Shown here in pieces: positions 6,839 to 52,359 of a stretch of 64,000 nucleotides of DNA; position 1 is the first letter of the stretch, and each line of letters begins with the position of its first letter. Where the stretch lies: positions 1 to 64,000 of the forward strand of contig NZ_FQXN01000004.1 in the NCBI RefSeq assembly GCF_900129985.1. The letters are read 5' to 3'. The notes under the pieces are model-generated. The model had not been told where the DNA came from. It saw only the letters and a list, made by a program, of their open reading frames with translations, and did not search any database. This DNA is from Thermosipho atlanticus DSM 15807. Lineage in GTDB: Bacteria > Thermotogota > Thermotogae > Thermotogales > Fervidobacteriaceae. A program made the position numbers and the translations under genes.

Positions 6839-7446
6839 TTTTTACCCTCCCAGTTGCAGTACTTTTCTAATGGACAATTTTTGCAATCAGGTTTAACTGG
6901 TTTACAGACATTTTTTCCAAATTCAACCATCGCACCATTTAAAGGTCCCCATAATTCTTTTGGAAGTAACTTCATGAGTTCAAATTCAGTATCTTCAGGT
7001 GTTTTGGTTTTGACCCATCCTAATCTATTAGAAATTCTATGAACGTGAGTATCTACAGCAAGTGCTGGTTTACCAAACGATATATAAAGAACTATATTAG
7101 CTGTTTTTCTGCCTACACCCGGTAATTTTAAAAGTTCTTCGAGAGTATTTGGTACTTTTCCGTTGTATTTCTTCTCTAAAATTTTAGAGATCTTAATTAT
7201 CCTGTCTGCTTTTTGTCTATATAAACCTGCAGGTTTTATAAGTTCATACAATTCGTTGGGTTGCGCTTTTGAAAGTTCTTTTGAATTTTTGTATTTTCCG
7301 AATAAATTTTTTGTTGCGATTTCTGTGTTTTCATCTTTGCTTCTTTGGCTTAATATAGTAGATATTAAAACATAAAAAGGATCTTTTATTTTAAGATCCC
7401 TTGGAAATTTCTCAATTATTAATTTAGCTATTTTTTCTATATTCAT
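6835..7446 (-). CDS. nth: Endonuclease III
   Basis: 203 residues from ATG 7446, which has GGAGGAG just upstream; a longer frame would begin inside ribF without support. A base-excision repair glycosylase/AP lyase that removes oxidised pyrimidines. The helix-hairpin-helix LPGVGRKTAN carries the catalytic lysine (K114) and AVDTHVHR carries the catalytic aspartate (D132). The C-terminal C-X6-C-X2-C-X5-C binds the 4Fe-4S cluster. It overlaps ribF by 23 nt and the aminotransferase gene by 4 nt. A second HhH-GPD paralogue lies at 56249-56899. Confidence 0.93.
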   Translation of the reverse strand: MNIEKIAKLIIEKFPRDLKIKDPFYVLISTILSQRSKDENTEIATKNLFGKYKNSKELSKAQPNELYELIKPAGLYRQKADRIIKISKILEKKYNGKVPNTLEELLKLPGVGRKTANIVLYISFGKPALAVDTHVHRISNRLGWVKTKTPEDTEFELMKLLPKELWGPLNGAMVEFGKNVCKPVKPDCKNCPLEKYCNWEGKK

Positions 7447-12560: not shown

Positions 12561-13925
12561 ATGGAAACGAAAGGGGTAAAGCTTTTAAAGGGAGATCCAA
12601 AAAAAGCCATACTGAAACTTTCAACTCCCATGATTTTAGCTATGTTTGTACAAACAATGTATAATCTTGTGGATGGGATATGGGTAGCAGGATTGGGCCC
12701 GAAGTCTTTGGCAGCGATAGGAGTATTTTTTCCAATATTTATGATAATCATATCTTTAGCATCTGGATTAGGAGTTGGTGCTAGCTCCGTTATTGCACGC
12801 AAAATAGGTGAGAAGGATAAAAAACTTGTTGATAGTGCAGCTATAAATTCAATAGTTCTTTCAGTTTTCTTTGGCGTGATTTCTTCAATATTTTTTTTGA
12901 TTTTCATTGGAAAGATTTTGAAAATAATAGGAGCTTCTGAAGAAATTTTAACTTTAACACTTGAATATGCATATGTGATTATTTTTTCAACGACTCTTTT
13001 GTTTTTTAACAATGTGGTTAACGGAATATTAAGGGGCGAAGGTGACGCGAAAAAAGCAATGTATGCAATCACAATTGGTTCAATTTTAAACATTTTTTTG
13101 GATCCACTTTTCATCTACACTTTTAATTTTGGAATAAAAGGTGCAGCATACGCAACTGTTTTTTCAATTTTTATTTCTACTGTTCTAATAATATACTGGT
13201 TGTTTATTAAAAGAAATACTTACGTTTCTTTGTATGTTAGAGGATTCAAAATTAATTTTAAAATTATGAAGGAAGTTTTAAAAGTAGGAATTCCTTCTTC
13301 TATAGCCCAAATTTCCATGTCAATTGCTATGTTTGTTTTAAATATTTTTGCTGTAAGGTCAGGAGGAGATTTTGGGGTAGCAGTGTTTACAAGTGCGTGG
13401 CGAATAATAAATTTTGGGACAGTACCATTGCTTGGAATAGCTACAGCAGTAACTTCTGTTACCGGTGCTTCATATGGTCAAAAGAATGGGGAAAAACTGG
13501 AAATTGCCCATATTTTTGCTATAAAATTTGGATTAATAATTTCAATTTTTGTTATGCTTTCAATAATGATTTTTGCACCCGTTATTGCAAAAATATTTAC
13601 GTATTCAAGTGAAGGTTCAAAAATATATGTTGAACTTGTTGAAGCTTTAAGAATTTTGAGTTTTTTCTTACCTGGTGTTCCTTTTGGTATGTTAACTTCT
13701 GCAATGTTTCAAGGGATTGGTCAAGGAATAAAGAGCATGATAGTTTCTGTAAATAGAACCATAATAATGCAGGTTTTGTTTTCCTATTTATACATTTTTA
13801 TACTTAATATAGGATTAAAAGGAGTGTGGTGGGGAATTGTTACGGGGAACGCTACATCAGCGGTAATCACCTTTTTCTGGGGCAGGAGCACAGTTAAAAA
13901 ATTGAAAAAAATATTTCTTAAATAA
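12561..13925 (+). CDS. MATE-family multidrug/Na+ efflux protein
   Basis: 454 residues from ATG 12561, 5 nt after AGGAGGT; the TTG at 12558 is too close to that site. Twelve membrane segments in two homologous halves. N-terminal motif STPMILAMFVQTMYNLVDGIWVAGLG and the middle GIPSSIAQISMSIAMFVLN are characteristic of bacterial MATE exporters (NorM/DinF-like), which expel cationic drugs in exchange for Na+ or H+. Single gene, converging on the AddB-like gene with a 2-nt gap. Confidence 0.9.
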   Translation: METKGVKLLKGDPKKAILKLSTPMILAMFVQTMYNLVDGIWVAGLGPKSLAAIGVFFPIFMIIISLASGLGVGASSVIARKIGEKDKKLVDSAAINSIVLSVFFGVISSIFFLIFIGKILKIIGASEEILTLTLEYAYVIIFSTTLLFFNNVVNGILRGEGDAKKAMYAITIGSILNIFLDPLFIYTFNFGIKGAAYATVFSIFISTVLIIYWLFIKRNTYVSLYVRGFKINFKIMKEVLKVGIPSSIAQISMSIAMFVLNIFAVRSGGDFGVAVFTSAWRIINFGTVPLLGIATAVTSVTGASYGQKNGEKLEIAHIFAIKFGLIISIFVMLSIMIFAPVIAKIFTYSSEGSKIYVELVEALRILSFFLPGVPFGMLTSAMFQGIGQGIKSMIVSVNRTIIMQVLFSYLYIFILNIGLKGVWWGIVTGNATSAVITFFWGRSTVKKLKKIFLK

Positions 13926-37537: not shown

Positions 37538-37577
37538 GTTAACACCTCCGTGAATATAATTAGTGGTCCCTAAGTAT

Positions 37578-37604: not shown

Positions 37605-37620
37605 TGTAACCTATATTACA
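37605..37620. promoter_or_regulatory. Crp/Fnr-type palindrome upstream of the hemerythrin-PAS gene
   Basis: TGTAA-CCTATA-TTACA, an inverted repeat centred at 37612.5, which is -41.5 from the predicted start. The 14-bp core differs from the hcp site (50253-50270) at only two positions. This spacing is that of class II Crp/Fnr activation. Confidence 0.6.
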
Positions 37621-37640
37621 AAATTAAACATTTTTTAATT

Positions 37641-37672
37641 AAAAAAAGGCTCATGAACGAGCCTTTTTATCT
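37641..37672. terminator. Hairpin terminator in the 37.6 kb intergenic region
   Basis: AAAAAGGCTC-ATGAAC-GAGCCTTTTT hairpin, T-flanked on both strands. On the minus strand it would end transcripts coming from the SHOCT/copA side before the hemerythrin-PAS promoter. Confidence 0.8.
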
Positions 37673-37689
37673 TTTTAAAGGATTTCAGG

Positions 37690-38003
37690 TTCATTGTTTG
37701 ATTATGCCAATAGCAGTATAATCAATTTGAAAAATTTTTAATTTCACTAGTTTCATATTCTGTTTCGATAGTAACTCTTTTTTTTTAGTTTAATTTTAAA
37801 TAAATTTTCTCTAAGTTTTTCAAAAGTATTTTTTTGTAATGTAGTGGTTGAAAAAATATCAGATATTTTTAGGATGCATCTTTTTTTGTTTTTCTTTTAT
37901 AAGTTTTTTGAGTTCTACCAAGGGATTAGCAAAAAATTTTTTAAAGTTGTTATCAGCATATTTATTGTTTTTTACAAAGTCTAGATATTTTTAAGTTCCA
38001 AAA
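37690..38003 (-). pseudogene. Decayed protein-coding remnant with frameshifts
   Basis: No intact ORF, yet minus-strand frames hold consecutive coding-like stretches that join across frame changes at poly-A runs. They read NDILELKN, then YLDFVKNNKYADNNFKKFF through KKLIKEKQKKMHPKN, then SDIFSTTTLQKNTFEKLREN, then VTIETEYETSEIKNFSN, and finally DYTAIGIIKQ before a stop. The pieces follow directly after the SHOCT gene. The family is unknown to me. This accounts for most of the 468-nt stretch without a gene between 37538 and 38005; the rest is the hemerythrin-PAS promoter and a terminator. Confidence 0.5.
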
Positions 38004-38005
38004 TA

Positions 38006-38242
38006 TCATTTGTTTTTGGAAATAATTGCTTTTTTTCTTAGGTATTCTTCTTCAGAAATTTCTCCTTTTACGAGTTTTTCATTTAATATTTTTAATGCAG
38101 AATTATTCTGATTAGAATTTGAAATGGTTAAAGATTTAAAAAGTTTGTATCCAAGATATAGAATTATTCCAAAAATAATCAATCCTATTAAACTACCAAT
38201 CCATCCTCCAAACCAACCGTAAGGTCCCCAAAACCAACACAT
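38006..38242 (-). CDS. Small membrane protein with SHOCT domain
   Basis: 78 residues from the second of two adjacent ATGs (7 nt from AGGAGG; the ATG at 38245 is 4 nt from it). Trp/Gly-rich N-terminus (CWFWGPYGWFGGWIG), one or two membrane segments, then a C-terminal SHOCT motif (LKILNEKLVKGEISEEEYLRKK). Such proteins frequently accompany copper ATPases; here copA ends 28 nt upstream. Role unknown. Confidence 0.75.
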   Translation of the reverse strand: MCWFWGPYGWFGGWIGSLIGLIIFGIILYLGYKLFKSLTISNSNQNNSALKILNEKLVKGEISEEEYLRKKAIISKNK

Positions 38243-38273
38243 CATCTCACCTCCTAACTAAAAGTTTTTGAAC

Positions 38274-40466
38274 TTACTGGCAACAAGTTAGTTTTTTCTT
38301 TGTTGATATGAATGATTTTTCATATCTTTTCAAGTTTATTTTTGAAGAATTTAAGATAACTGTTATTGAACTAAACGCCATAGCTGCTTCGGCAATTGCA
38401 GGGTGCAATAATCCTAACATTGCTAAAGGAATTGCTACCACGTTGTAAAAGAATGCCCAAAACAAATTTTGTTTAATGACGCTGAACGTTAATCTTGAAA
38501 TTTTTATTGCATCTACAATTTTTGAAATTCCTTCTTGAGTTATTATGATATCAGCATTGTCAATTGCAAGATCAGTTCCAGAGCCTATTGCTATTCCTAC
38601 ATCTGCCCCTTTAAGTGCTGCTGCATCATTCATTCCATCTCCGACCATTAAAACCTTATTTCCTGAAACTTGGTATTCTCTGATAATGTCCAGTTTTTCA
38701 TGAGGTTTTACCTGTGCATAAACTGTTTCAATACCTACTTGTTTAGCTACTATGCTGGCTGTTTTTTCATTATCTCCTGTTACCATTATTGGATTAATTT
38801 CCATGCGTTTTAATAGACTAATAGCATTAAACGAATCTGGCCTTATTGGATCAACTATTCCCAAATATCCAATTGGTACACCATTTTTTCTGACTTCTAC
38901 TACAGTATAACCCAGATCGAGAAGTTTTGTATATTTTGAATAATCCAGAGGTTTTCCTATAAAGTATTCGTCTTTTTCCAAAACTGTTTTGATTCCTTCT
39001 CCACTTTTTTCTTCAATGTTTTCAAATTCAAAATATTCATTTGACAGCTCTGAGATAGCTTTTGCTAAAGGATGATTTGAATATTTCTCTATTGAAGCGA
39101 CAATTTTAATGAGGGAACTGTCTAAATTATGTTCAACTACTTTTGGATGTCCTTCAGTTATTGTGCCTGTTTTATCCATTATTATTGTTTTTAGATCTTT
39201 CATTGTTTGAATTGCTTCCGCGTTTCTGATTAATAATCCCTTTTTCGCAGACAGACCAGTTCCAGTGATTAGGGCCATAGGGGTAGCTAATCCCAATGCA
39301 CATGGACAAGCTATTACTATTGTTGCTACAAATACAAAAATCCCAAATGAAAGAGGATCATTAGTGTTTAATATCCACGGTAAATATCTTCGAGCGTTTT
39401 CTATAAATGGATAGAATTTATCAAATCCTAAATACCAAGTAACTCCACTGATAATTGCGAGAGTAATAATTGCAGGTACAAACCAATTTGTTATTTTATC
39501 AGCTAATGCTTGAATAGGGACTTTAGATCCTTGTGCTTCTTGAATTAAATCTATCATTTTTGCTAAAAAAGTTTCCTTACCGACTTTTGTTGTTTTGATT
39601 TTAATTTTTCCAGTTAAATTTAATGAACCACCTATAACTTCATCTCCTATAGTTTTTTCTACAGGCATTGATTCTCCACTAACAACTGCTTCATCAATTC
39701 CTGAAATACCCTCAATTATTTCACCATCAATTGGTATTCTTTCTCCAGGTTTAACAAGTACAACCATTCCTTCTTTTACTGCTTCTATCGGTAGAAATAA
39801 TTCCTGACCATTGGAAATTATTCTAGCTTCTTTTGCCTGCAACTTTAGGAGATTTTTAATTTCTTTTGAAGCCTTGTCTCTTAAGTATGATTCTATAAAT
39901 CTTCCAAGTAAATGAAATGAAATTATCATTGTTCCTATGGCTCCAAAAGAAGCGATTTTTACACCGAAAAACGAAAGGACAGAAGTTGTCCAAGCGGTGG
40001 TAGCACCAAAAAAGATAAGTGTATCCATATTTGTATGTTTATGAGTTAGTGCAATCCAGGCTCCTTTGATTGTATCTCTTCCAGCATAAAAAGTAACAAT
40101 TCCTCCAACTACAACTTCAATAAAAGTAAAATAAGGAATTTTTGTGAAAAACATGTTTATTATCATTAAAATGGTTATTGGGATTGTAAAGATTAAAGAT
40201 ATTATAAAATTCTTTTTAATTCTTTTAAATCGTTTTTCTTCGATTTGTTCAGGAGGTTCGTTTGAAATACCATAACCAACGCTTTCAACTATTTCTTTAA
40301 TTTTTTCAAGGTCTATATCTTCCCCAATTACAAAACCTGTGTTGGTTGCAAGATTTACAGCAGCAAACTTTATATTTTTAGATTTTAATAAGGCTTTTTC
40401 AATTGTTTTAGCACATGTAGCACAAGTCATTCCTGTCACGGTAAATGTTTTCTTTTTTTCTTCCAT
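38274..40466 (-). CDS. copA: Copper-exporting P-type ATPase
   Basis: 730 residues from ATG 40466 (CGGAGGAAATAAAT upstream). One N-terminal HMA domain with TGMTCATCAK (C15, C18), eight membrane helices, the metal-site CPC in VIACPCALGLATP, phosphorylation motif MDKTGTITEGHP and hinge MVGDGMNDAAALKGADVG. The NxxxxxxxxY and MxxSS elements in the last helices (YNVVAIPLAMLG, MAFSSITVILNS) match Cu(I) exporters. It follows csoR by 23 nt, so copper induction through CsoR is expected. Confidence 0.95.
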   Translation of the reverse strand: MEEKKKTFTVTGMTCATCAKTIEKALLKSKNIKFAAVNLATNTGFVIGEDIDLEKIKEIVESVGYGISNEPPEQIEEKRFKRIKKNFIISLIFTIPITILMIINMFFTKIPYFTFIEVVVGGIVTFYAGRDTIKGAWIALTHKHTNMDTLIFFGATTAWTTSVLSFFGVKIASFGAIGTMIISFHLLGRFIESYLRDKASKEIKNLLKLQAKEARIISNGQELFLPIEAVKEGMVVLVKPGERIPIDGEIIEGISGIDEAVVSGESMPVEKTIGDEVIGGSLNLTGKIKIKTTKVGKETFLAKMIDLIQEAQGSKVPIQALADKITNWFVPAIITLAIISGVTWYLGFDKFYPFIENARRYLPWILNTNDPLSFGIFVFVATIVIACPCALGLATPMALITGTGLSAKKGLLIRNAEAIQTMKDLKTIIMDKTGTITEGHPKVVEHNLDSSLIKIVASIEKYSNHPLAKAISELSNEYFEFENIEEKSGEGIKTVLEKDEYFIGKPLDYSKYTKLLDLGYTVVEVRKNGVPIGYLGIVDPIRPDSFNAISLLKRMEINPIMVTGDNEKTASIVAKQVGIETVYAQVKPHEKLDIIREYQVSGNKVLMVGDGMNDAAALKGADVGIAIGSGTDLAIDNADIIITQEGISKIVDAIKISRLTFSVIKQNLFWAFFYNVVAIPLAMLGLLHPAIAEAAMAFSSITVILNSSKINLKRYEKSFISTKKKLTCCQ

Positions 40467-40489
40467 ATTTATTTCCTCCGTATAAAAAA

Positions 40490-40762
40490 TCAAATAATTT
40501 TGTTTAGGTACTCAATAACTTGTTCGAGTTCTTTTATTTTCTCATCAATTTCTTTGGGATCTTTTGAATATGCTGCGTTTTTTACACAATGTTCAAGATG
40601 AGAATTTAATATCTGGACATTAGCTTTTTTTAGTAAAGAAATAGATGCTAAAATTTGTTTTGATATATCAATACAATATCTGTCGTCTTCTACCATCTTT
40701 ATTACTGCTTCAACCTGTCCTTTTGCTGTCTTTAAAAGTTTTAGACTATCTTTTTTATTCAT
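40490..40762 (-). CDS. csoR: CsoR-type copper-sensing repressor
   Basis: 90 residues, all helical. The Cu(I) ligands of CsoR are present in the right order: C30 (DDRYCIDI), H55 and C59 (NSHLEHC). Starts MNKKDSLKLLKTAKGQVEAV; the GQ-x-x-A-V element after an arginine-poor helix is typical. It precedes copA, and a palindrome with C/G tracts covers its own transcription start. Confidence 0.92.
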   Translation of the reverse strand: MNKKDSLKLLKTAKGQVEAVIKMVEDDRYCIDISKQILASISLLKKANVQILNSHLEHCVKNAAYSKDPKEIDEKIKELEQVIEYLNKII

Positions 40763-40809
40763 TTTTCCACTCCTTTAAATTTTTGATATTTCAAAAAACA
40801 GATTATATC

Positions 40810-40823
40810 CCCCCTATAGGGGG
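40810..40823. promoter_or_regulatory. CsoR operator
   Basis: CCCCC-TATA-GGGGG perfect palindrome, the G/C-tract pattern of CsoR boxes. It lies immediately downstream of the -10 box of the csoR-copA promoter. Confidence 0.82.
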
Positions 40824-40832
40824 TTCGAAAAA

Positions 40833-40861
40833 ATTATACCTTTATTTATCTTGTTTGTCAA
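40833..40861 (-). promoter_or_regulatory. Consensus sigma-A promoter of csoR-copA
   Basis: On the minus strand, TTGACA (40856-40861), 17-nt spacer, TATAAT (40833-40838): perfect consensus, kept silent presumably by CsoR. Confidence 0.9.
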
Positions 40862-40880
40862 ATATACTAAAAAAAATGAA

Positions 40881-40909
40881 TTGAATTTTTTATATAATTG
40901 TGATAATAT
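40881..40909 (+). promoter_or_regulatory. Promoter of the tRNA-Ser gene
   Basis: TTGAAT (40881-40886), 17-nt spacer and TAATAT (40904-40909), 10 nt before the mature tRNA. Confidence 0.6.
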
Positions 40910-40918
40910 AACAACTGA

Positions 40919-41008
40919 GGAGGCGTGCACCGAATTGGCTAAGGGGCCGGTCTCGAAAACCGGTGGGCAGCAATGCCCTTGTGGGTTCGAGTCCCACCGC
41001 CTCCGCCA
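40919..41008 (+). tRNA. tRNA-Ser (anticodon CGA)
   Basis: 90 nt including an encoded CCA. Acceptor stem GGAGGCG/CGCCTCC, discriminator G, anticodon stem CCGGT/ACCGG around loop CTCGAAA giving CGA, long class II variable arm (GGGCAGCAATGCCC), and T arm GTGGG-TTCGAGT-CCCAC. It reads UCG serine codons. Confidence 0.97.
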
Positions 41009-41012
41009 AAAC

Positions 41013-41046
41013 AAAAAGCGGGTTGATATCCCCGCTTTTTTATTTT
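41013..41046 (+). terminator. Terminator of tRNA-Ser
   Basis: AAAAAGCGGG-TTGATATC-CCCGCTTTTT hairpin followed by TATTTTT. Confidence 0.9.
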
Positions 41047-41164
41047 TGAAGCAAAAACATACTGTTGAATTAATTATGATTAAGATTATTAATATGTCAT
41101 TCAAAAGTTAATTTCAATTTGATGAGACTAATATGATATAGTTTTTCAGAATAAAAATCTTATT

Positions 41165-42436
41165 TTATGCAAGTAAAACAAGTGTATAAATAATCCCAAC
41201 TGTTAGTGAAATAAGAACTGAAGGTGTGGTCCATTTCATATATTCAAGAAAACCAAATCTTCTTTCAAGATTTTTTTCTAAAAAGCTTACAGTTACTAGG
41301 TTTTGTACAGCGCCAAGTGGTGTAAGGTTGGTTGCAAAATTGGCTCCTATAGCAAACGTCCACCAAAGCATAGGGTTTGAACCACTAGTAACTAATATTT
41401 TTATTACTGGTGCCAAAATTAGTGCTGCAGGAACATTGTTTAAAATTGGAATTGTCAAAATTGAAATTAAGTAAAAAATTAACATAAGAATTAGTTGATG
41501 ACCTAGAATTGGTGTAAACAAATTTGCAATTTTTTCTGTGAAGCCTATTTCATCTAATGCGTATGAAATTATGTAAAGTCCTGCAAAGAAAAAAAGCATA
41601 TCCCAATCTATATCTTTAGCAACATCTTCATAACCATTTGAAAATTTAAAAACCAAAAATGTTCCGCCTAATAGTGCAATAACAGCAAGTTCTATGTGTA
41701 ATACAGAATGTAAGATAAACAATACAACGACGATTAAGAAAACAATTAGTGAATATATCATCATTTTTGGATCATTAATAGCATTTTTTTCATCTAGTTC
41801 AAAGAGTTTTTCTATTTTTGATATCGATTTTTCATCAATTTTTATATGTCTTTTAAAATAGAGAATAATTGCTATGAAGGCAAAAATAGCAACTGGACCC
41901 ATTTTGATTAAAAAATCATTGAATGAAAAACCACTAATTGATCCAATAACAAGATTCAGAGGACTTCCAATTAAAGTAGCTGAACCTCCTATGTTGTCTA
42001 CAATTATTGTTAGCATCATTAAAGGAATTGGATTGATCTCAAGCATGTCAGCAATTAGGAAGATCATAGGTGCCATGACCAAAATAGTTACGACATTATC
42101 TAAAAATGCAGAAGTTAATGCCACTATAACCATTAATAATGATATTGTTAAATAAAAGTTTTTTCCACCAATTTTGATGATTTTAATCGAAAAAAATTCA
42201 AAAAAACCAGATTTGTTTAGGAAACTTACGATTATCATCATTCCAGTTAATAAACCTAAAGTATCAACGTCGATTATGTAACCAACGTTTCTTGTTTCCA
42301 AACCTTCAACTAATCTAAGTGCAGAAATAAGAAGCGCAATACCAAATACCACTGCTGCTTTGTTTTTTTTACCAAATATGATATACAGATACGTTATTAT
42401 TACAAGAAGTAAAACAAGAATAGAATGTAAGCTCAT
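41165..42436 (-). CDS. ArsB/NhaD-superfamily ion permease
   Basis: 423 residues, 11-12 membrane segments. Fits the ion-transporter superfamily with the conserved segments SAFLDNVVTILVMAPMIFL, DNIGGSATLIGSPLNLVIG and NVPAALILAPVIKIL. These are seen in arsenite/citrate permeases and NhaD Na+/H+ antiporters. ATG is preceded by GAGGTGGAAC. It stands alone, facing a NUDIX gene. Substrate uncertain. Confidence 0.82.
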   Translation of the reverse strand: MSLHSILVLLLVIITYLYIIFGKKNKAAVVFGIALLISALRLVEGLETRNVGYIIDVDTLGLLTGMMIIVSFLNKSGFFEFFSIKIIKIGGKNFYLTISLLMVIVALTSAFLDNVVTILVMAPMIFLIADMLEINPIPLMMLTIIVDNIGGSATLIGSPLNLVIGSISGFSFNDFLIKMGPVAIFAFIAIILYFKRHIKIDEKSISKIEKLFELDEKNAINDPKMMIYSLIVFLIVVVLFILHSVLHIELAVIALLGGTFLVFKFSNGYEDVAKDIDWDMLFFFAGLYIISYALDEIGFTEKIANLFTPILGHQLILMLIFYLISILTIPILNNVPAALILAPVIKILVTSGSNPMLWWTFAIGANFATNLTPLGAVQNLVTVSFLEKNLERRFGFLEYMKWTTPSVLISLTVGIIYTLVLLA

Positions 42437-42601
42437 TGTTCCACCTCATTTAAATTTATAGTATAATTTTTATGAGTGAATAAATGAAGAGAATTTATTT
42501 AAAATTATATCATTAATAATTTTAATATTTATGTGCAAGAAGTTAAAAATGTAAATGATTATGTTTACGATTTTCGAAATCAAAATTTGGAGGTATTTAT
42601 A

Positions 42602-43144
42602 ATGAAAGAACATACTTTAAAGTCAAAGGAAATATTCAAAGGGATTCTATTACATGTAAAGAAAGATGAAGTTTTATTATCTAATGGCAGGAAAAGTGTA
42701 AGAGAGTACGTTTTACATCCAGGAGCAGTGGCGGTTGTTCCCATTACCGAAGATAATAAAGTGGTTTTTGTAAAACAATACAGGTATCCTGTCAAACGTG
42801 TTTTACTTGAGATTCCCGCGGGGAAATTTGATTCGCCTAATGAAGATCCATTGGAATGTGCTAAGAGAGAATTAAAGGAAGAGACAGGTTTTTTGGCAGA
42901 AGAATTTATTTATTTGGGTTACATTTATACAACTCCTGGTTTTTCAAATGAAATAATTCATATCTATCTTGCTAGAAACCTTCAGAAGGGTGAAATGAAT
43001 ACGGATGAAGATGAGATTATAGAGCTTGAATATAAAGATTTAAACGTTGCAATAAATGAGTGTATCAATGGTAAAATTACAGATGCAAAAACTATTGCTG
43101 GAATATTTAAAGCTTATTTTTTGCTGAGTGAGAAGAAGGAGTGA
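42602..43144 (+). CDS. NUDIX hydrolase (ADP-ribose pyrophosphatase type)
   Basis: 180 residues from ATG 42602, which follows TTGGAGGTATTTATA; an earlier frame start at 42533 has no such site. The Nudix box reads from GKFDSPNEDPLE to AKRELKEETGFL, with the catalytic RE..EE. The N-terminal VREYVLHPGAVAVVPI is typical of ADP-ribose pyrophosphatases. Hydrolyses ADP-ribose or similar nucleoside diphosphates in the cytoplasm. Followed by a small membrane protein gene after 4 nt. Confidence 0.9.
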   Translation: MKEHTLKSKEIFKGILLHVKKDEVLLSNGRKSVREYVLHPGAVAVVPITEDNKVVFVKQYRYPVKRVLLEIPAGKFDSPNEDPLECAKRELKEETGFLAEEFIYLGYIYTTPGFSNEIIHIYLARNLQKGEMNTDEDEIIELEYKDLNVAINECINGKITDAKTIAGIFKAYFLLSEKKE

Positions 43145-43148
43145 TAAA

Positions 43149-43349
43149 ATGAAAATAGTTTCAAACATATTTTTTATTTCTGCAGTTGTTTTTCTTTCAG
43201 GTGCTTTAATATTTTTTGAAATTGGAATGCGTGCAATGAGGAGGCAATTGGAAATTAAGGAAAAAAAGAGCACAAAAATTGCAATAAGATTTTTAATAAC
43301 AAGTGTATTACTGTTTGGGATTTCTGGATTATTAGCAATTTTCGCCTAG
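43149..43349 (+). CDS. Small two-helix membrane protein of unknown function
   Basis: 66 residues from ATG 43149 with GAAGGAGTGATAAA upstream. Two hydrophobic segments (about 5-26 and 46-65) separated by a basic loop (RAMRRQLEIKEKKSTK). No family recognised. It lies 4 nt after the NUDIX gene and is probably co-transcribed. Confidence 0.65.
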   Translation: MKIVSNIFFISAVVFLSGALIFFEIGMRAMRRQLEIKEKKSTKIAIRFLITSVLLFGISGLLAIFA

Positions 43350-43369
43350 GTGAGTAAGAAGTAAGAAAA

Positions 43370-43398
43370 TTGACGTGCAATGGTATATATGGTATAAC
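43370..43398 (+). promoter_or_regulatory. Promoter of the ArsR-family gene
   Basis: TTGACG (43370-43375), 17-nt spacer and TATAAC (43393-43398), 38 nt before the chosen start codon. Confidence 0.7.
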
Positions 43399-43435
43399 AT
43401 ATGAGTAATATTAAAATATGAAAGATGGTGGAAAA

Positions 43436-43828
43436 ATGAAAAAAACGAAAGACACCAGTAAAAAAAATAACAAAAAAAATATTGAAGTGTGTCAGACAAT
43501 AGAAATTCACGATGAAATAATAAAAAGCGTTAAAGATAAAATTCCAGATGAGGAAATCTTAAATAAATTAGCTGATTTGTTTAAAGTTATTGGAGATAGA
43601 ACAAGGATAAAAATTTTGTATACTTTATTGCAGGTAGAGAAAATGTGTGTATGTGATTTATCATTTGTTCTTGGAAAGACACCTTCCGCTATTTCTCACC
43701 AGTTAAGAGTTTTAAGGCAAACTGAGCTTGTGAAATACAAAAAAGAAGGAAAAGTAGTTTATTACTCTTTAAACGACGAGCACGTAAGAGAATTACTCGA
43801 TGTTGGTTACACACATATTACCGAATAG
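43436..43828 (+). CDS. ArsR/SmtB-family metal sensor (CadC/CzrA-like)
   Basis: 130 residues from ATG 43436 (GGTGG 4 nt upstream). Winged helix VLGKTPSAISHQLRVLRQTELVKYKKEGK. Both classical metal sites can be read: alpha3N-type C19, C71 and C73 (VCQT and MCVCDL), and alpha5-type D114, H116, H127 and E130 (NDEHVRELLDVGYTHITE). The latter matches the DxH...HxxH spacing of CzrA with Glu in the last place. Likely senses Zn, Cd or Pb. Probable target is zntA about 5 kb downstream, whose promoter has two SmtB-type operators. Confidence 0.85.
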   Translation: MKKTKDTSKKNNKKNIEVCQTIEIHDEIIKSVKDKIPDEEILNKLADLFKVIGDRTRIKILYTLLQVEKMCVCDLSFVLGKTPSAISHQLRVLRQTELVKYKKEGKVVYYSLNDEHVRELLDVGYTHITE

Positions 43829-43867
43829 TAATTTTTCATTTCAAGAATTTTATAGGGCGCAATTGTT

Positions 43868-46399
43868 TTATTTTGTCCTTGTTTTTTCAAAACTAAGTAT
43901 AGAAGTAATCACAAATATCGTAATTAAATAACTAAAAATTACTCCTAACAATAGAAGAATTCCAAAACCTATAAATCCCCTATATTTTGAAAGAACAAAA
44001 GAACCAAAAGCCACAGCTGTGGTTAATGTTGTCATAGTAATAGCTTTACCTGTGCTAGTAAGAGCATTTTTCATATTTCTTTCTTTTCTATATCTATGAA
44101 TAAGATGTATTCCATCGTCAACACCTATTCCGATTATCAAGGGTAATGCTATTATATTAACTACGTTGAATTTAATTCCGAACCATCCCATTATACCCAA
44201 CAAAAATATCAATGATAATACCATTGGTAACATAGCTAAGACCGCGTATTTTACATTTCGCATATCGAGAATTAATACAATAAGTATGAATAATAGTGTC
44301 AAAAATAATATTTTTTTCCCTTCTTCTATCGATATTTGGACAACTTTTAAAAATATCAAAGCTGTTCCACTAACATTTTTAGAGTTTAAGCTTTTCAATT
44401 CTTTAAAATATTCTTTTTGATAGTCAGAATTCCAGATATCTCCATTTGAGTATGCTGTTGTTAAAATCATTCCTTTGTTACTTAAGTAATTTGTTTTAAT
44501 ATCTTCTGGCAATTTTTCTAATGTAATGAGCTCCTTATCATTTAAAACTCTTTTCAAAACGACTATCTTTTTGATTATTTTGCTTTGAACGGATTTTAAA
44601 AACTCTTTGTCTTTTTTAAGTATAGCTTGGAGTATTCCTGAAGTTGTAATATTTTTCAATTTATCTCCTAAATCTTTATATCCCAATAGATTTAAAAGCA
44701 TTGATGCTTTTATGAGATTAAAATTTAATTTTGTTACTTCGTTTTTCAACTGTTTTAGATCAAAATCATTTTCAATTATAGTGTAATTTTTTATTTCACG
44801 TGCAACTTTCATTCTTTTTATTTGTAAATTTATATCAGGAAGAAATGGTATGATACTATCAATGCGAGAGAATACTTTCAAATCCTTTAATTTGTTATAT
44901 AACTCTTTTGCTTCAAGAATGTTGTTGCTTATAAATATTGTATTGTCTGGTGAAAAGTTGAATTCGTTTAATATTTTTTGATTTAATTCCAGACTTTCTA
45001 GTCCTTTTGCTTCAATGTTCATCATGTTTTTTTCAAATTCAACTGAAGGTATTTTTACAATTGCAATTATAAATAAAATAGCTGTTATTGTGAGTATTAT
45101 TTTTTTATATTTTAAAACATCAAAATCGATATTAAAAACTTTTCCCGGATCTTTATATTTATTTCCAAATTTATATAGTAGGATTGTTAGTCCGAAAATA
45201 GAAGCTAATAATGTAAAAATAATTCCAGATGATAAGACAACTCCAAACTCTTTAAAGCCAGGGAATGAACTAATAGCAAATATTCCCATCCCGATTGCTG
45301 TAGTGATTGCACCTACAAAAATACCTCTAATGTTTTTTTCAAAAACTCCAGTAATAGAATCTCTAGTATCGAATCCCTTATGTCTTAGTTCTATAAACAA
45401 AGAGAACATGTGAATAGAGTAATCTATTCCTAATCCAGCTAGTATAGCTGCCATCATAACAGTCATTACGTTTAGTGAACCAATGCTTAATTGTGTAAAT
45501 CCTATTGTCCAAATAATTCCCAGTATCAAAGGAAACACTGCTAAAATCATATATCTCAAACTTCTAAAACCTAACATAAAGATTAATATAATTAGAATTA
45601 AAGAAATGATGGTAGTTACAGTCATATCTCTTTTTGTTGTTATGATTTCATCTCTTGTTATGACCAATGTACCCGTTAATCCTGCCTTCACATTATATTT
45701 TTTAGCTTCTTCTTTTACAGTATTTTCTAATGAATTGACTAAGTTGACTACTTTTTCAAATTCATTGGAACTAATAGTTGGTCTGATTATTATTATTCCA
45801 AAATTTCCATTTTTTGATAAAAAGTATTCTTCTCCAAAAAGCATTGATTTTAAAGAACTTTCAACGTTGCCATTTCTGTTTATTTCTGTTAATAATCTTT
45901 CAAATGAGTCTAACATATAATCGAGTTGATATTTTTCCTGCGGTGATATTTTATAACTATTCCCCGATACTTCAAATAACGTGTTTAAAGCTTTAAAAAA
46001 TTCAACTAGGTTTGTTGATGTATATAACTTTTTCAAAAAAGCTTGTTCGCTATCTTCTGATAGTAAAAAAATGTTCTTTTCTAGAAATTCTATCGGTTGT
46101 TTATAATAAACAGAATCAATGTGCTGCATTTTTTTCAGCTTTTTTGAAATGCTATTTATATAATTAATAACGTTTTCTTTTTTTCCTTCAATACCTATAA
46201 TAATACTATCAACACTTTTAAAATTTTCTGTTGCTTTTTTATATATTTCTACATAGGGATCGTTTTCAGGTAATAAATCCAAAAAACTTGGTCTAATTAC
46301 AATCTTGGTTGATAAATATAAAGAGCCTAAAGTGATTATAATGAGAATAACTGATATGGTTTTTATGTTTTTTATAATAAAAATTCCAAGCTTCTCCAC
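43868..46399 (-). CDS. MMPL/RND-family exporter
   Basis: 843 residues from GTG behind GAGGGTGG. Two repeats of the RND pattern: one helix, a large outer domain, then five helices. The second and fifth blocks include LAGLGIDYSIHMFSLFIELR and IGIGVDDGIHLIHRYRKER, with the aspartates used in proton relay. Similar to HpnN/MMPL-type lipid or hydrophobic-compound exporters. No outer-membrane or fusion partner is nearby. A hairpin sits immediately before its ribosome-binding site, and zntA lies upstream. Confidence 0.87.
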   Translation of the reverse strand: MEKLGIFIIKNIKTISVILIIITLGSLYLSTKIVIRPSFLDLLPENDPYVEIYKKATENFKSVDSIIIGIEGKKENVINYINSISKKLKKMQHIDSVYYKQPIEFLEKNIFLLSEDSEQAFLKKLYTSTNLVEFFKALNTLFEVSGNSYKISPQEKYQLDYMLDSFERLLTEINRNGNVESSLKSMLFGEEYFLSKNGNFGIIIIRPTISSNEFEKVVNLVNSLENTVKEEAKKYNVKAGLTGTLVITRDEIITTKRDMTVTTIISLILIILIFMLGFRSLRYMILAVFPLILGIIWTIGFTQLSIGSLNVMTVMMAAILAGLGIDYSIHMFSLFIELRHKGFDTRDSITGVFEKNIRGIFVGAITTAIGMGIFAISSFPGFKEFGVVLSSGIIFTLLASIFGLTILLYKFGNKYKDPGKVFNIDFDVLKYKKIILTITAILFIIAIVKIPSVEFEKNMMNIEAKGLESLELNQKILNEFNFSPDNTIFISNNILEAKELYNKLKDLKVFSRIDSIIPFLPDINLQIKRMKVAREIKNYTIIENDFDLKQLKNEVTKLNFNLIKASMLLNLLGYKDLGDKLKNITTSGILQAILKKDKEFLKSVQSKIIKKIVVLKRVLNDKELITLEKLPEDIKTNYLSNKGMILTTAYSNGDIWNSDYQKEYFKELKSLNSKNVSGTALIFLKVVQISIEEGKKILFLTLLFILIVLILDMRNVKYAVLAMLPMVLSLIFLLGIMGWFGIKFNVVNIIALPLIIGIGVDDGIHLIHRYRKERNMKNALTSTGKAITMTTLTTAVAFGSFVLSKYRGFIGFGILLLLGVIFSYLITIFVITSILSFEKTRTK

Positions 46400-46417
46400 G
46401 ATTCCACCCTCTTTTTT

Positions 46418-46451
46418 AAAAATTAGGCCGAGAGTAATCGGCCTAATTTTT
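46418..46451. terminator. Strong hairpin between zntA and the MMPL gene
   Basis: 14-bp perfect stem (46418-46431 with 46438-46451, loop GAGTAA) flanked by A/T runs. On the minus strand it ends 19 nt before the MMPL start, so MMPL expression requires read-through or a promoter in 46452-46523, where no clear one is seen. Confidence 0.85.
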
Positions 46452-46523
46452 AGTGAGTTGTAGGGGGAGCATACAAAGTTATAACTATTGTTTTAGTTTT
46501 TAGAATAACTGCGTTATTGGATT

Positions 46524-48614
46524 TTATCTCTTAAAAATTCTTAGTGAATTAAAAATTGCTATAAGTGTTACACCTACATCTGCAAAAACAGCACCCCACA
46601 TATCTGTTAAGCCGAGAGCACCAAGAACTAAAAACAATACTTTTATTCCTAAGACTATTGAAATGTTTTCCCAGGTAATCTTTAATGTTTTTCTCGAAAT
46701 TTTAATTGAGTCAATTAATTTTGAAAGATCGTCATCCATAATTACCACGTCAGCTGCCTCAATTGCTGCGTCTGACCCAAGTCCGCCCATTGCAATTCCT
46801 ACATCAGCTCTTGTTAATACTGGGGCATCGTTGATTCCGTCTCCAACAAACGCTGTCGAAACCCCATTTTTGTATTTTTCAAAAAACTTTATTTTATCTC
46901 CAGGAAGAAGTTCTGCAAAATATTCGTCGATTCCAATTTCCTTAGCAACTTCTTCGGCAACTTTTTTATTGTCTCCCGTGAGCATCACAGTTTTTTTAAC
47001 TCCTAATTTTTTTAGCTTTTTAATGACTTCTTTTACTCCTGGTTTAATTTTGTCCGAGATTCCTATATACCCAGCAAAAATTCCGTTTATTGAAACAAAA
47101 ACAATCGTTCCATTGAATTTAATTTCTGGTATTTTAACGTTGAATTTTTCCATTAGTTTTTTATTTCCCACAAGAATTTCTTTTCCTTTTATTTTTGCTT
47201 TTATTCCGTGACCTGATATTTCTTCATAATGTTCAATAAGACTTTTGTCAAAAGTTTTACCATATTTTTTCTTTATCGATTCTGCAATGGGGTGGTTGGA
47301 GTGTTCTTCAGCATATGCTGCAATTTCCAAAAGTTCATTTTCGCTTATTCCGTTATATGTTTTTATTTCCACTACTTCAAAAACGCCCTCTGTTAAAGTA
47401 CCTGTTTTGTCGAAAATAATTGTGTTAAGATTTTTTAATACTTCTATGTAATTTCCACCTTTTACAAGCACACCATGTTTAGATAGTGCACCTACTCCTG
47501 CAAAATAGCCCAGAGGTATTGATACAACAAGGCCACATGGACAGGAAATTACAAGGAATATTAAAGCCCTGTATATCCATTCGTTAAACGGAGCACCTGT
47601 TAGTAAGGGCGGAAGAGTTGCTAAGGCCATTGCTAAAAATACAACTATAGGAGTATAGTATTTAGCAAATTTAGTTATAAGTTTTTCAGTTTTTGCTTTT
47701 TTTGCTGCAGCATTTTCTACCATATCAAGAATTTTTGAAATTGTTGATTCTGAGTATTCTTTTTCTACTTTTACTGTAATTAAACCATTTAAATTTATGA
47801 AACCACTCAGAACTTTATCATTTTCCTTTATGCTTTTAGGGACAGATTCGCCAGTTAATGCAGAAGTATCTACCATTGAACTTCCTTTCACAATTACACC
47901 GTCAAGTGGTATTCTTTCTCCGGGTTTAACTACTATTAGATCGCCTTTCTTTACAACTTGGGGAGATACTCTAATTTCTTTACCATCTTTTAATAAATTT
48001 GCATAATCTGGTCTTATATCTAAAAGAGCTTTAATTGATCTTTTTGAATTATCCACTGCAAGATTCTGTAGCAGTTCACCGATTTCAAAAAAGACCATTA
48101 CTCCAACGGCTTCAGGATATTCTCTAATTGCAAAGGCTCCAAGAGTAGCAACGCTCATCAGGAAATTTTCATCGAAAATCTTTCCCCTTAAAATATTTTT
48201 AAATGATCGTATTAAAATTTTACCACCTGATATCAAATATGCAGCAATGTATAATGTTACCTTTAAGTAGAGTGGATCTTTTAAAAGAAGGGCTATTACA
48301 AATATTGCAAGCGCAGAAAATAATCTTATAATTTCAAGTTTTTTATTAAATTTTTCATCATGACTATGTCCATGATCATGTTCATGATTGGATTTGGCTT
48401 TCTTTTCAACTACCTCGACTTCTGGTTCTACTTTTTTTACTAAATTTTTAATCTCTTGTACTTTATCTTCATCACTTACATTTACTGTAAGAGTTTTAGT
48501 AATAAAATTAACAGTAACTTCTTCCACTCCATCAAGTTTTTTTACATGTTCTTCTATTTTTACTGCACAATTAGCACAGTCTAGTCCTTCAAGTAAAAAT
48601 TCTTTTTTATCCAT
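46524..48614 (-). CDS. zntA: Zinc/cadmium-exporting P-type ATPase
   Basis: 696 residues from ATG 48614 (AAGGAGGAAGTATAAG upstream). HMA domain GLDCANCAVKIEEH (C13, C16), His-rich linker at about 77-85 (HEHDHGHSH), metal-site CPC in VISCPCGLVVSIPLGY, DKTGTLTEGVF and FVGDGINDAPVLTRADVG. The last helices contain DVGVTLIAIFNSLR with the Asp typical of Zn(II)/Cd(II)/Pb(II) exporters. Promoter carries two SmtB/ArsR operators. Confidence 0.94.
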   Translation of the reverse strand: MDKKEFLLEGLDCANCAVKIEEHVKKLDGVEEVTVNFITKTLTVNVSDEDKVQEIKNLVKKVEPEVEVVEKKAKSNHEHDHGHSHDEKFNKKLEIIRLFSALAIFVIALLLKDPLYLKVTLYIAAYLISGGKILIRSFKNILRGKIFDENFLMSVATLGAFAIREYPEAVGVMVFFEIGELLQNLAVDNSKRSIKALLDIRPDYANLLKDGKEIRVSPQVVKKGDLIVVKPGERIPLDGVIVKGSSMVDTSALTGESVPKSIKENDKVLSGFINLNGLITVKVEKEYSESTISKILDMVENAAAKKAKTEKLITKFAKYYTPIVVFLAMALATLPPLLTGAPFNEWIYRALIFLVISCPCGLVVSIPLGYFAGVGALSKHGVLVKGGNYIEVLKNLNTIIFDKTGTLTEGVFEVVEIKTYNGISENELLEIAAYAEEHSNHPIAESIKKKYGKTFDKSLIEHYEEISGHGIKAKIKGKEILVGNKKLMEKFNVKIPEIKFNGTIVFVSINGIFAGYIGISDKIKPGVKEVIKKLKKLGVKKTVMLTGDNKKVAEEVAKEIGIDEYFAELLPGDKIKFFEKYKNGVSTAFVGDGINDAPVLTRADVGIAMGGLGSDAAIEAADVVIMDDDLSKLIDSIKISRKTLKITWENISIVLGIKVLFLVLGALGLTDMWGAVFADVGVTLIAIFNSLRIFKR

Positions 48615-48642
48615 CTTATACTTCCTCCTTGATTTGAACATT

Positions 48643-48656
48643 TGAATAAGTGTTCA
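48643..48656. promoter_or_regulatory. SmtB/ArsR-type operator at the zntA start site
   Basis: TGAATA-AG-TGTTCA, the 6-2-6 core of ArsR/SmtB operators; a wider repeat TGAACA-N10-TGTTCA covers 48635-48656. It overlaps the predicted transcription start. Confidence 0.75.
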
Positions 48657-48661
48657 TATAT

Positions 48662-48690
48662 ATAATAACAAAAACTTTATATAAAGTCAA
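48662..48690 (-). promoter_or_regulatory. Promoter of zntA
   Basis: On the minus strand, TTGACT (48685-48690), 17-nt spacer and TATTAT (48662-48667). Confidence 0.75.
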
Positions 48691-48730
48691 CATTTTTTGG
48701 TTACTGCAACATTACTAATTATTGAATATT

Positions 48731-48744
48731 TGAATAAACTTTCA
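48731..48744. promoter_or_regulatory. Second SmtB/ArsR-like site upstream of zntA
   Basis: TGAATA-AA-CTTTCA within ATATTTGAATAAACTTTCAT. It shares the left half of the proximal operator, with two changes in the right half, 88 bp upstream. Confidence 0.5.
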
Positions 48745-48760
48745 TATTTTCATTTAATAA

Positions 48761-48787
48761 TATAAGCTGGAGAAACTCCAGCTTATA
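48761..48787. terminator. Hairpin downstream of the DUF1015 gene
   Basis: 12-bp stem TATAAGCTGGAG-AAA-CTCCAGCTTATA. The T run is weak on both strands, but no other terminator follows the minus-strand DUF1015 gene. Confidence 0.7.
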
Positions 48788-48833
48788 TTATTTAAATCGA
48801 TACTAACGTGATTTTTGTTTGTTAAAAATGAAA

Positions 48834-50072
48834 TTAAATAAGATGAACTAAAATCCCACTCTTTAGTTTTGGTTCGAACCAAGTAGATTTTGGTGGCATT
48901 ATTTTTCCTTCATCTGCCACCTGCATCAAATCGTTAATTGAAGTTGGGTAAAGGGCGAAAGCAACTTTAAATTCCCCGTTGTCAACTAACTTTTGAAGTT
49001 CTTCAATTCCTTTAATTCCTCCAACAAAATCAATTCTTTTGTCAGTTCTTGGATTTTCAATACCAAGTATCGGTCTCAAAAGGTTCTCTTGAAGAATTGA
49101 CACATCCAGAGAGGAAACTACATCATTTTTATCATAGGTTCCTTCTTTGGCAATTAATTTGTACCACTTCTTATTTAAATACATTCCAAATTCATGTTTT
49201 TCTTGTGGTTTGTAAGGTGTATTTCCAATTTCTTTTATTTCAAATTTCTGTGATATTTTTTCAAAAAATTCTTTTTCAGTTAAGCCATTGAGATCTCTTA
49301 TAACTCTGTTGTAATCTAAAATGTTTAATTGATTATGTGGGAATAACACAGCGAGGAAAAAGTTATACTCTTCTTCTCCAGTGTGGTTTGGGTTTTCTTT
49401 TGCAAATTCTTCAGCAGCTCTTGCGGCAGCAGCAGCTCTATGATGTCCATCTGCAATATAAAATGCATCTACCGTCTTAAAGGCTTCAACTATTTCATTT
49501 ATTTCGTTTTCATCTTTTATGATCCAAAGTGTATGGTGGATTCCTATCTCATCAGTATAATCATACTCGGGAATTTTTGAGGTGTGTTTAATTATTAATT
49601 CGTCGAGTTCGGGGACTGAACGATACATCAAAAATACAGGCCCCGTGTGTGCTTTCAATAATTTGACGTGTTTCGCCCTTTCATCTTCTTTGTCTTTTCT
49701 TGTGAGTTCATGTTTTTTAATTTTTCCTTCCCTGTATTCTTCTGTAGAGAAGGTAGCATATATACCTATTTGAGAAAGTCCATTCCATTCTTCCTTGTAT
49801 ACATATATCGCTGGTTTATCCTCTAAAATCATTATCCCATCTTTTTGAAATTGTTCTAAAACTTCTTTTCCTTTTAAAATTACCTCGTTAGAATGTGAAT
49901 CAACATCCTCGTTAAAATTAATTTCCGGTCTGGTTACTTTATAAAATGTATATGGGTTTTTTTCTGCTTCTCTTTTAGCTTCTTCTGTTGTAACTACGTC
50001 ATATGGTTTGGCGGCAACTTTTTCAATCATATCTTTTCGTGGTCTTAAACCTTTGAAAGGTCTTACTATCAC
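48834..50072 (-). CDS. DUF1015 family protein
   Basis: 412 residues. DUF1015 hallmarks: VRPFKGLRPRKDM at the start, AAKPYDVVT, NPYTFYKVTRPE, the central IADGHHRAAAAARAAEEF, and PPKSTWFEPKLKSGILVHLI at the end. The function is not established; kinase-like or serine-metabolism roles have been proposed for relatives. Single gene between zntA and hcp, both read separately. Confidence 0.9.
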   Translation of the reverse strand: MIVRPFKGLRPRKDMIEKVAAKPYDVVTTEEAKREAEKNPYTFYKVTRPEINFNEDVDSHSNEVILKGKEVLEQFQKDGIMILEDKPAIYVYKEEWNGLSQIGIYATFSTEEYREGKIKKHELTRKDKEDERAKHVKLLKAHTGPVFLMYRSVPELDELIIKHTSKIPEYDYTDEIGIHHTLWIIKDENEINEIVEAFKTVDAFYIADGHHRAAAAARAAEEFAKENPNHTGEEEYNFFLAVLFPHNQLNILDYNRVIRDLNGLTEKEFFEKISQKFEIKEIGNTPYKPQEKHEFGMYLNKKWYKLIAKEGTYDKNDVVSSLDVSILQENLLRPILGIENPRTDKRIDFVGGIKGIEELQKLVDNGEFKVAFALYPTSINDLMQVADEGKIMPPKSTWFEPKLKSGILVHLI

Positions 50073-50252
50073 ATTTTCCCTCCTTTTCTTTATAAATTTA
50101 CCATCCTCATTTTAGCATATTACAATTGTACTATCAACAGTGAATAGTTTTAACAGAAGATAATAATAAATTTTTATGAAATTAAATCTCAAAAATGCTT
50201 GGTTAATCGAATATAAAATATTATAATTATAGATTGGGAAAGTTTTTAATTA

Positions 50253-50270
50253 CCGTAATCTAGATTACGG
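50253..50270. promoter_or_regulatory. Perfect 18-bp palindrome upstream of hcp (Crp/Fnr-family site)
   Basis: CCGTAATCTAGATTACGG, a perfect inverted repeat centred at 50261.5. With the TATAAT at 50291 the start is expected at 50303, so the centre is at -41.5, the class II activator position. The 14-bp core recurs with two differences at 37605-37620. Confidence 0.8.
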
Positions 50271-50290: not shown

Positions 50291-50296
50291 TATAAT
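50291..50296 (+). promoter_or_regulatory. -10 box of hcp
   Basis: TATAAT at 50291-50296. The -35 hexamer position reads CGGATG and overlaps the palindrome, indicating activator dependence. The rest of the 259-nt gap back to 50073 holds the promoter of the DUF1015 gene and no ORF. Confidence 0.75.
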
Positions 50297-50331
50297 AAAA
50301 GGTGTAAAATATAATTAGAGGAGGTGAAATG

Positions 50332-51672: not shown

Positions 51673-52359
51673 TTAGAAAAATAAAGCGTAATCTTTTACA
51701 TACTTGAATTTTTTAATTTTTATTGATTTGCCCTCGATTTCTATAACACCGGCTTTTTCAAGTTCAATAAAAACTCTTGATAGGGCAGGTCTTGTAACAC
51801 CGAATTCTCTGGCAAGTTCTTCTTTGGACATATTCATAATTACTGTAGTACTATTTTGTGCTTTGTGAAGTTCATATAAGTAGCTGCATATCTTTTGTAC
51901 CAAATTTTTCAACGTAATTTCATAAAACCTGTCTGTAATAAAGACAAAAGTGTCTGAGACGAGTTGAAGATAATTTCTTAACAGTTTTTCATTAGTCATC
52001 ATTTTTCTTACAAATTTTTCTTTAGGGATTTTTAAAATTTTGCTTGGTTTTACAGTAACAACATCAACTGGAAATTTAGGATTTGAAGAGAATATTACAG
52101 CAGTGGCCAAAGTTTTAGGAGCAAACATGTGATCAACTTGTATAACTTTTCCGTCCTCATTAATAAATAACCCAAGGGTTTCACCCTCTATTAAAATCAA
52201 TACTTCAGTACACGGATCATTTCTAAATCTTATGGTTTCATCTTTTTCATACGATTCTATTTGATAATCTTTTAAGATTTCAAAAATTTCTTTTTCTTCA
52301 ATGTCTTCAAAAAGTTTACACTTTTTGATAACTGAAACGTATTTGATTAACGTAGACAT
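51673..52359 (-). CDS. Crp/Fnr-family regulator (HcpR-like by context)
   Basis: 228 residues from ATG 52359 (TGGAGGGAGAT upstream; the frame further up runs into asnS). N-terminal cyclic-nucleotide-binding-like beta roll (about 15-120), long dimer helix, and a winged helix with MSKEELAREFGVTRPALSRVFIELEKAG (recognition helix RPALSRVF). No Fnr-type N-terminal Cys cluster. Convergent to hcp; relatives called HcpR regulate hcp in anaerobes. Likely activates hcp and the hemerythrin-PAS gene through GTAA-N6-TTAC sites. It follows asnS by 37 nt. Confidence 0.87.
   Translation of the reverse strand: MSTLIKYVSVIKKCKLFEDIEEKEIFEILKDYQIESYEKDETIRFRNDPCTEVLILIEGETLGLFINEDGKVIQVDHMFAPKTLATAVIFSSNPKFPVDVVTVKPSKILKIPKEKFVRKMMTNEKLLRNYLQLVSDTFVFITDRFYEITLKNLVQKICSYLYELHKAQNSTTVIMNMSKEELAREFGVTRPALSRVFIELEKAGVIEIEGKSIKIKKFKYVKDYALFF

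Follow-up and report, generated by a model that had tools for sequence, protein, structure and literature searches.

In the heat-loving anaerobe Thermosipho atlanticus DSM 15807 the palindromes upstream of hcp and of a DUF438-hemerythrin-PAS gene are in all likelihood the sites of an HcpR2-type regulator, which would turn on both genes as an NO-signalled class II activator, with a gene for a NapH-like polyferredoxin as a likely third target. The sites, their geometry and conservation, the gene neighbourhoods, the recognition helix of the regulator and its uniqueness in the genome were established in this work.

Palindromes and promoter geometry in the window

Coordinates are positions in the window, i.e. 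the whole stretch of 64,000 nucleotides that was analysed (positions 1-64,000 of contig NZ_FQXN01000004.1), unless a contig is prefixed. Box scores are the number of matches out of 10 to the published HcpR2 box GTAACnnnnGTTAC (PMC1274295). The features are listed in Table 1.

Table 1. Genes, boxes and promoter elements of the hcp and DUF438 loci
Feature	Position	Strand	Remarks
DUF438-hemerythrin-PAS_10 protein, 415 aa	36290-37537	minus	PF04282, PF01814 and PF13596 above cut-off
TATAAT -10 of the DUF438 gene	37583-37578	minus	predicted +1 at 37571
HcpR2-type box GTAATATAGGTTAC	37606-37619	minus	9/10 to GTAACnnnnGTTAC; centre at -41.5, DUF438 promoter
Candidate divergent -10, TATAAT	50226-50231	minus	23-bp gap from the hcp palindrome; faces DUF1015 gene 48834-50072
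Perfect 18-bp palindrome CCGTAATCTAGATTACGG	50253-50270		contains the 14-mer HcpR2-type box 50255-50268
HcpR2-type 14-mer box GTAATCTAGATTAC	50255-50268		8/10 to GTAACnnnnGTTAC; centre at -41.5, hcp promoter
TATAAT -10 of hcp	50291-50296	plus	predicted +1 at 50303; similar spacing recurs in relatives
hcp, short hybrid cluster protein, 434 aa	50329-51633	plus	TIGR01703 635.5 bits (cut-off 360.8); Prismane PF03063
Strong bidirectional terminator hairpin, shared by the convergent hcp and hcpR genes	51640-51666		fold -23.3 kcal/mol, z -7.3
HcpR2-type Crp/Fnr regulator, 228 aa	51673-52359	minus	PF00027 and PF13545 above cut-off; recognition helix RPALSR

The first-pass annotation had described near-identical palindromes at the two promoters, each 41.5 bp from the start predicted from a TATAAT box and neither accompanied by a -35 element, and all of this was borne out. 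The 14-mer cores share 12 of 14 positions (the palindrome of the DUF438 gene, 37605-37620, reads TGTAACCTATATTACA), and the centres recomputed from the sequence, 50261.5 for hcp and 37612.5 for the DUF438 gene, are both 41.5 bp away from the respective predicted +1 (50303 and 37571). The hexamers at the -35 place are CGGATG and CAGGAT, each poor in comparison with TTGACA. The DUF438 gene, the only one of its kind in this genome, most likely starts at ATG 37537, with GGAGGTG in front of it; TTG 37588 merely gives the longest ORF. Because a TATAAT stands on the opposite strand 23 bp from the hcp palindrome, this palindrome may serve both directions, hcp and the divergent DUF1015 gene. The window has another perfect 18-bp palindrome (7173-7190, TCTCTAAAATTTTAGAGA), whose sequence is unrelated to that of the hcp palindrome.

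It must be noted that GTAA-N6-TTAC is frequent in this genome of 31% GC (48 copies; five in the window vs. 1.4 expected), thus the palindromes alone are weak evidence, and we rejected any significance drawn from the pattern by itself. A palindrome with TATAAT 22 bp downstream is strong evidence, having been found twice in the window, where about 0.009 occurrences are expected per window. Five places in the genome match the looser pattern GTAA-N6-TTAC-N22-TANNNT perfectly: those of hcp, the DUF438 gene and the polyferredoxin gene, one in a coding ORF, and one at C2:190932. The only exact (10/10) box of the genome, at 13449-13462, was not accepted as a site, as it falls within an ORF of 455 aa. 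Near-consensus boxes were set aside as well, those at C5:14415, C1:89689, C1:129140, C1:219282 and C1:310443 being all in ORFs, the one at C2:149612 apparently within a short cysteine-rich reading frame, and the one at C5:38866 abutting a ribosome-binding site.

Boxes and gene neighbourhoods in the Thermotogae

The first-pass annotation had made its reading depend on whether the palindromes recur in front of hcp and DUF438 orthologs, and the comparison found them conserved in several Thermotogae families. The regulator, hcp and DUF438 genes were located in 60 related genomes, and the 250 bp upstream were searched for boxes, with expectations taken from dinucleotide shuffles. Boxes scoring at least 9/10 precede 26 of the 41 hcp genes (0.10 in shuffles) and 13 of the 16 close DUF438-hemerythrin-PAS orthologs, the window gene included (0.11 in shuffles), and merely 2 of the 13 distant DUF438 paralogs. 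The match upstream of hcp is 10/10 in 24 of the 41 genomes that have the gene; for nine of the 41 hcp genes, some of them operon-internal, no box of at least 8/10 was present within 250 bp. The sites of the window (8/10 for hcp, 9/10 for the DUF438 gene) are weaker than those of the relatives, and the same-genus hcp promoters have GTAATCTATGTTAC (G001) and GTAACCTATGTTAC (G002). Exact boxes number 38 in 20 genomes of the family, 19 of these at hcp or DUF438 promoters; 14 of 16 checked exact boxes elsewhere in relatives sit inside long ORFs.

The spacing is conserved together with the boxes. A -10 element (at least 5/6) is found at +29.5 from the box centre, corresponding to -41.5, in 15 of 19 box-bearing DUF438 promoters, and at +29.5 or +30.5 (-41.5 or -42.5) in 23 of 33 hcp promoters, while the counts at other offsets are mostly 0-2. 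In many relatives the downstream half-site merges into GACA at the -35 position, as in GTTACAGACA of G021; a half-site running into the -35 region is common for class II sites. The relatives are non-independent samples, the pattern nonetheless spans several families and unlike neighbourhoods. We consider this cross-relative conservation decisive for the question of chance, and it is very probable that both palindromes of the window serve as genuine regulatory sites.

Six of the relatives (G006, G010, G014, G047, G050 and G056) have the genes for the regulator, the DUF438 protein and Hcp side by side, and in G003 the regulator gene follows the DUF438 gene. Thus two genes that are 12.6 kb apart in the window are neighbours elsewhere, which supports their joint regulation independently. 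The regulator gene is convergent with hcp in the window and in G001, and divergent or adjacent in other relatives. The ten DUF438 loci inspected from non-Thermotogae had no hcp or close HcpR within approximately 4 kb and no 10/10 box; a distant Crp-type match was found at one of them alone (L135). The proposal that hcp and the DUF438 gene belong to one Crp/Fnr regulon is supported by the conserved boxes, the -10 spacing, the gene neighbourhoods and the presence of a single Crp-HTH protein.

The regulator, its probable signal and proposed mode of action

The gene convergent to hcp does code, as previously annotated, for a Crp/Fnr protein without an Fnr-type Cys cluster, its cysteines being at positions 14, 50 and 158 only. 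No other protein of the genome has an HTH_Crp_2 match above cut-off, three weaker matches falling below it. In its helix (TRPALSRVF) Arg180 and Pro181 (E. coli CRP numbering) are present, the residues that were tied to the box GTAACnnnnGTTAC in HcpR2 (PMC1274295). The Crp/Fnr architecture, these two residues, the location near hcp, the GTAACnnnnGTTAC-type box upstream of hcp and the lack of an Fnr-type Cys cluster are all as in the HcpR2 regulon of anaerobes (PMC1274295). No box precedes the regulator gene in this genome, and autoregulation is thus not visible.

It is instructive to compare the regulator with HcpR of Porphyromonas gingivalis (PDB 9day), to which it is homologous over 197 residues (E 2.3e-26), and which activates hcp in response to NO through a heme with Met68 as ligand (PMC12750200). 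Met68 aligns with Phe65 of the window regulator, and Phe occupies this position in 17 of 17 members of the clade (support 100/99) in which the regulator falls in the tree. Cys14 and Cys158 are invariant in this clade, Cys50 is present in 15 of 17. The best solved match, PDB 1o5l ('transcriptional regulator, crp family', E 1.6e-36), has the identical RPALSR helix and carries His where P. gingivalis HcpR has Met68; the conserved Cys14 belongs to a stretch that the match does not cover. Met is found at this position in other branches, including 5 of the 6 genomes with all three genes clustered. A search for porphobilinogen deaminase found none in this genome (99% complete) or in 57 of the 61 genomes searched. 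Because Phe replaces Met68 and no porphobilinogen deaminase was found, heme-based NO sensing of the P. gingivalis type appears doubtful for this regulator, although most relatives with Met at the Met68 position likewise had no such enzyme and heme can be taken up from outside. It is conceivable, albeit speculative, that the regulators of the 17-member clade sense NO heme-free through Cys14, Cys158 and usually Cys50, as thiols or with an Fe-S cluster, and that the partner DUF438 protein has an unusual Tyr-containing iron site and acts as the NO-handling effector. The replaced heme ligand and the lack of a detectable porphobilinogen deaminase make the question of NO sensing by HcpR testable with a thermostable protein.

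In the mechanism that we favour, a reactive-nitrogen signal, probably NO, would be received by the HcpR2-group regulator 51673-52359, a dimer of which would bind each box centred at -41.5, overlapping the place of the missing -35, and recruit RNA polymerase as a class II activator. Turning on hcp would lead to NO reduction; turning on the DUF438-hemerythrin-PAS gene would supply what is predicted to be an iron protein, its probable role being in NO handling or in the repair of iron-sulfur clusters, and the NapH-like polyferredoxin gene elsewhere in the genome would likely be the third target to be activated. Binding and activation in this regulon are what we infer here, and the signal is taken from the HcpR literature.

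The same regulon could in principle answer to oxygen or general redox stress instead of NO. Hemerythrin domains are able to bind O2, the conserved cysteines could sense the redox state and the host group is anaerobic. We nevertheless regard such a signal as rather unlikely, since the studied Hcp and HcpR regulons considered here are linked to NO and nitrite; moreover, a hemerythrin-PAS gene of D. desulfuricans (Ddes_1165), proposed to be a YtfE equivalent, is induced by NO, and its D. vulgaris homolog responds to nitrite but shows no response to oxidative stress (PMC5701242). By analogy, nitrosative stress appears to be the better-supported signal.

It is less probable still that the boxes are HcpR2 sites at which the regulator represses and from which NO releases it. 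The geometry speaks for an activator, a centre at -41.5 before -10 boxes that have no -35, and the P. gingivalis protein is an NO-heme activator of hcp (PMC12750200), whereas for D. desulfuricans HcpR2 the model put forward is repression that ends when an Fe-S cluster is damaged (PMC5701242); the cysteines conserved in the 17-member clade would be compatible with that model. Binding of the boxes by some regulator other than 51673-52359 is highly improbable: this protein, to which the boxes are assigned on sequence grounds, adjoins the targets, has helix residues that fit the motif and is the only one above cut-off, the competitors being the three weak HTH_Crp_2 matches below it. The possibility that the palindromes are functionless AT-rich inverted repeats that arose by chance can practically be dismissed, because in spite of the abundance of the pattern and the location of most examined near-consensus copies within coding ORFs, the boxes and their -10 spacing are conserved at orthologous promoters far above the shuffles.

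Known and predicted new members of the regulon

Rodionov et al. (2005) had predicted that HcpR2 controls hcp in Thermotogales and found no other target there, thus the type of regulator, the motif and the control of hcp are already known (PMC1274295). Compared with that prediction, the present analysis adds the DUF438 gene and the NapH-like polyferredoxin as predicted targets and finds the activator geometry across the class. As far as the literature shows, the DUF438-hemerythrin-PAS gene as second target, the polyferredoxin gene as likely third and the change of Met68 to Phe in the sensor are new, although an earlier RegPrecise entry is possible. A link to HcpR is absent from the titles and abstracts of the literature mentioning DUF438 or COG2461, and a literature search on a Thermosipho hybrid cluster protein found none. 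The HcpR2 regulon of this deep-branching anaerobic phylum would reach beyond hcp, and regulation and neighbourhood would attach a role in defence against nitrosative stress to the little-studied DUF438-hemerythrin-PAS family.

The DUF438 protein resembles the di-iron YtfE/RIC proteins of iron-sulfur repair and Ddes_1165 in its hemerythrin domain, in which the predicted ligands align except at one position, and Ddes_1165 also in the arrangement of hemerythrin and PAS domains; repair of nitrosative damage has been proposed for the known proteins. In contrast to YtfE/RIC, the window protein is far under the model cut-offs (NF008221, 33.8 vs. 254; TIGR03652, 28.9 vs. 204.7) and has Tyr at the position of YtfE His129, with a His one residue earlier, and we therefore did not assign it to that family. 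The Tyr is shared by most HcpR-linked DUF438 relatives, those of G005, G013, G016 and G049 keeping His. By analogy, the DUF438-hemerythrin-PAS protein may function like YtfE.

Upstream of the ORF of the NapH-like polyferredoxin, the N-terminus of which seems to be disrupted here, lies a third box of the HcpR2 type, GTAACATATATTAC, followed by TATAAT at the -41.5 spacing (C3:160863-160904). Box and spacing recur in G056; G006 has a weaker box, and in G051 an exact one precedes the polyferredoxin operon; the orthologs of G001 and G050 had no box at the corresponding place. An HcpR regulon described for delta-proteobacteria includes a polyferredoxin (PMC545781).

Further boxes were observed in relatives. 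The gene of a ferredoxin-DUF1858-DUF2249 protein in G050 (L254:192-2060, minus strand) has an HcpR2-type box at 2163 and a -10 element upstream, and is possibly an additional member of the regulon in that genome. Boxes were also seen upstream of small cupin genes at L255:969 (G047) and L156:999 (G014), the -10 spacing fitting in G047 and not in G014.
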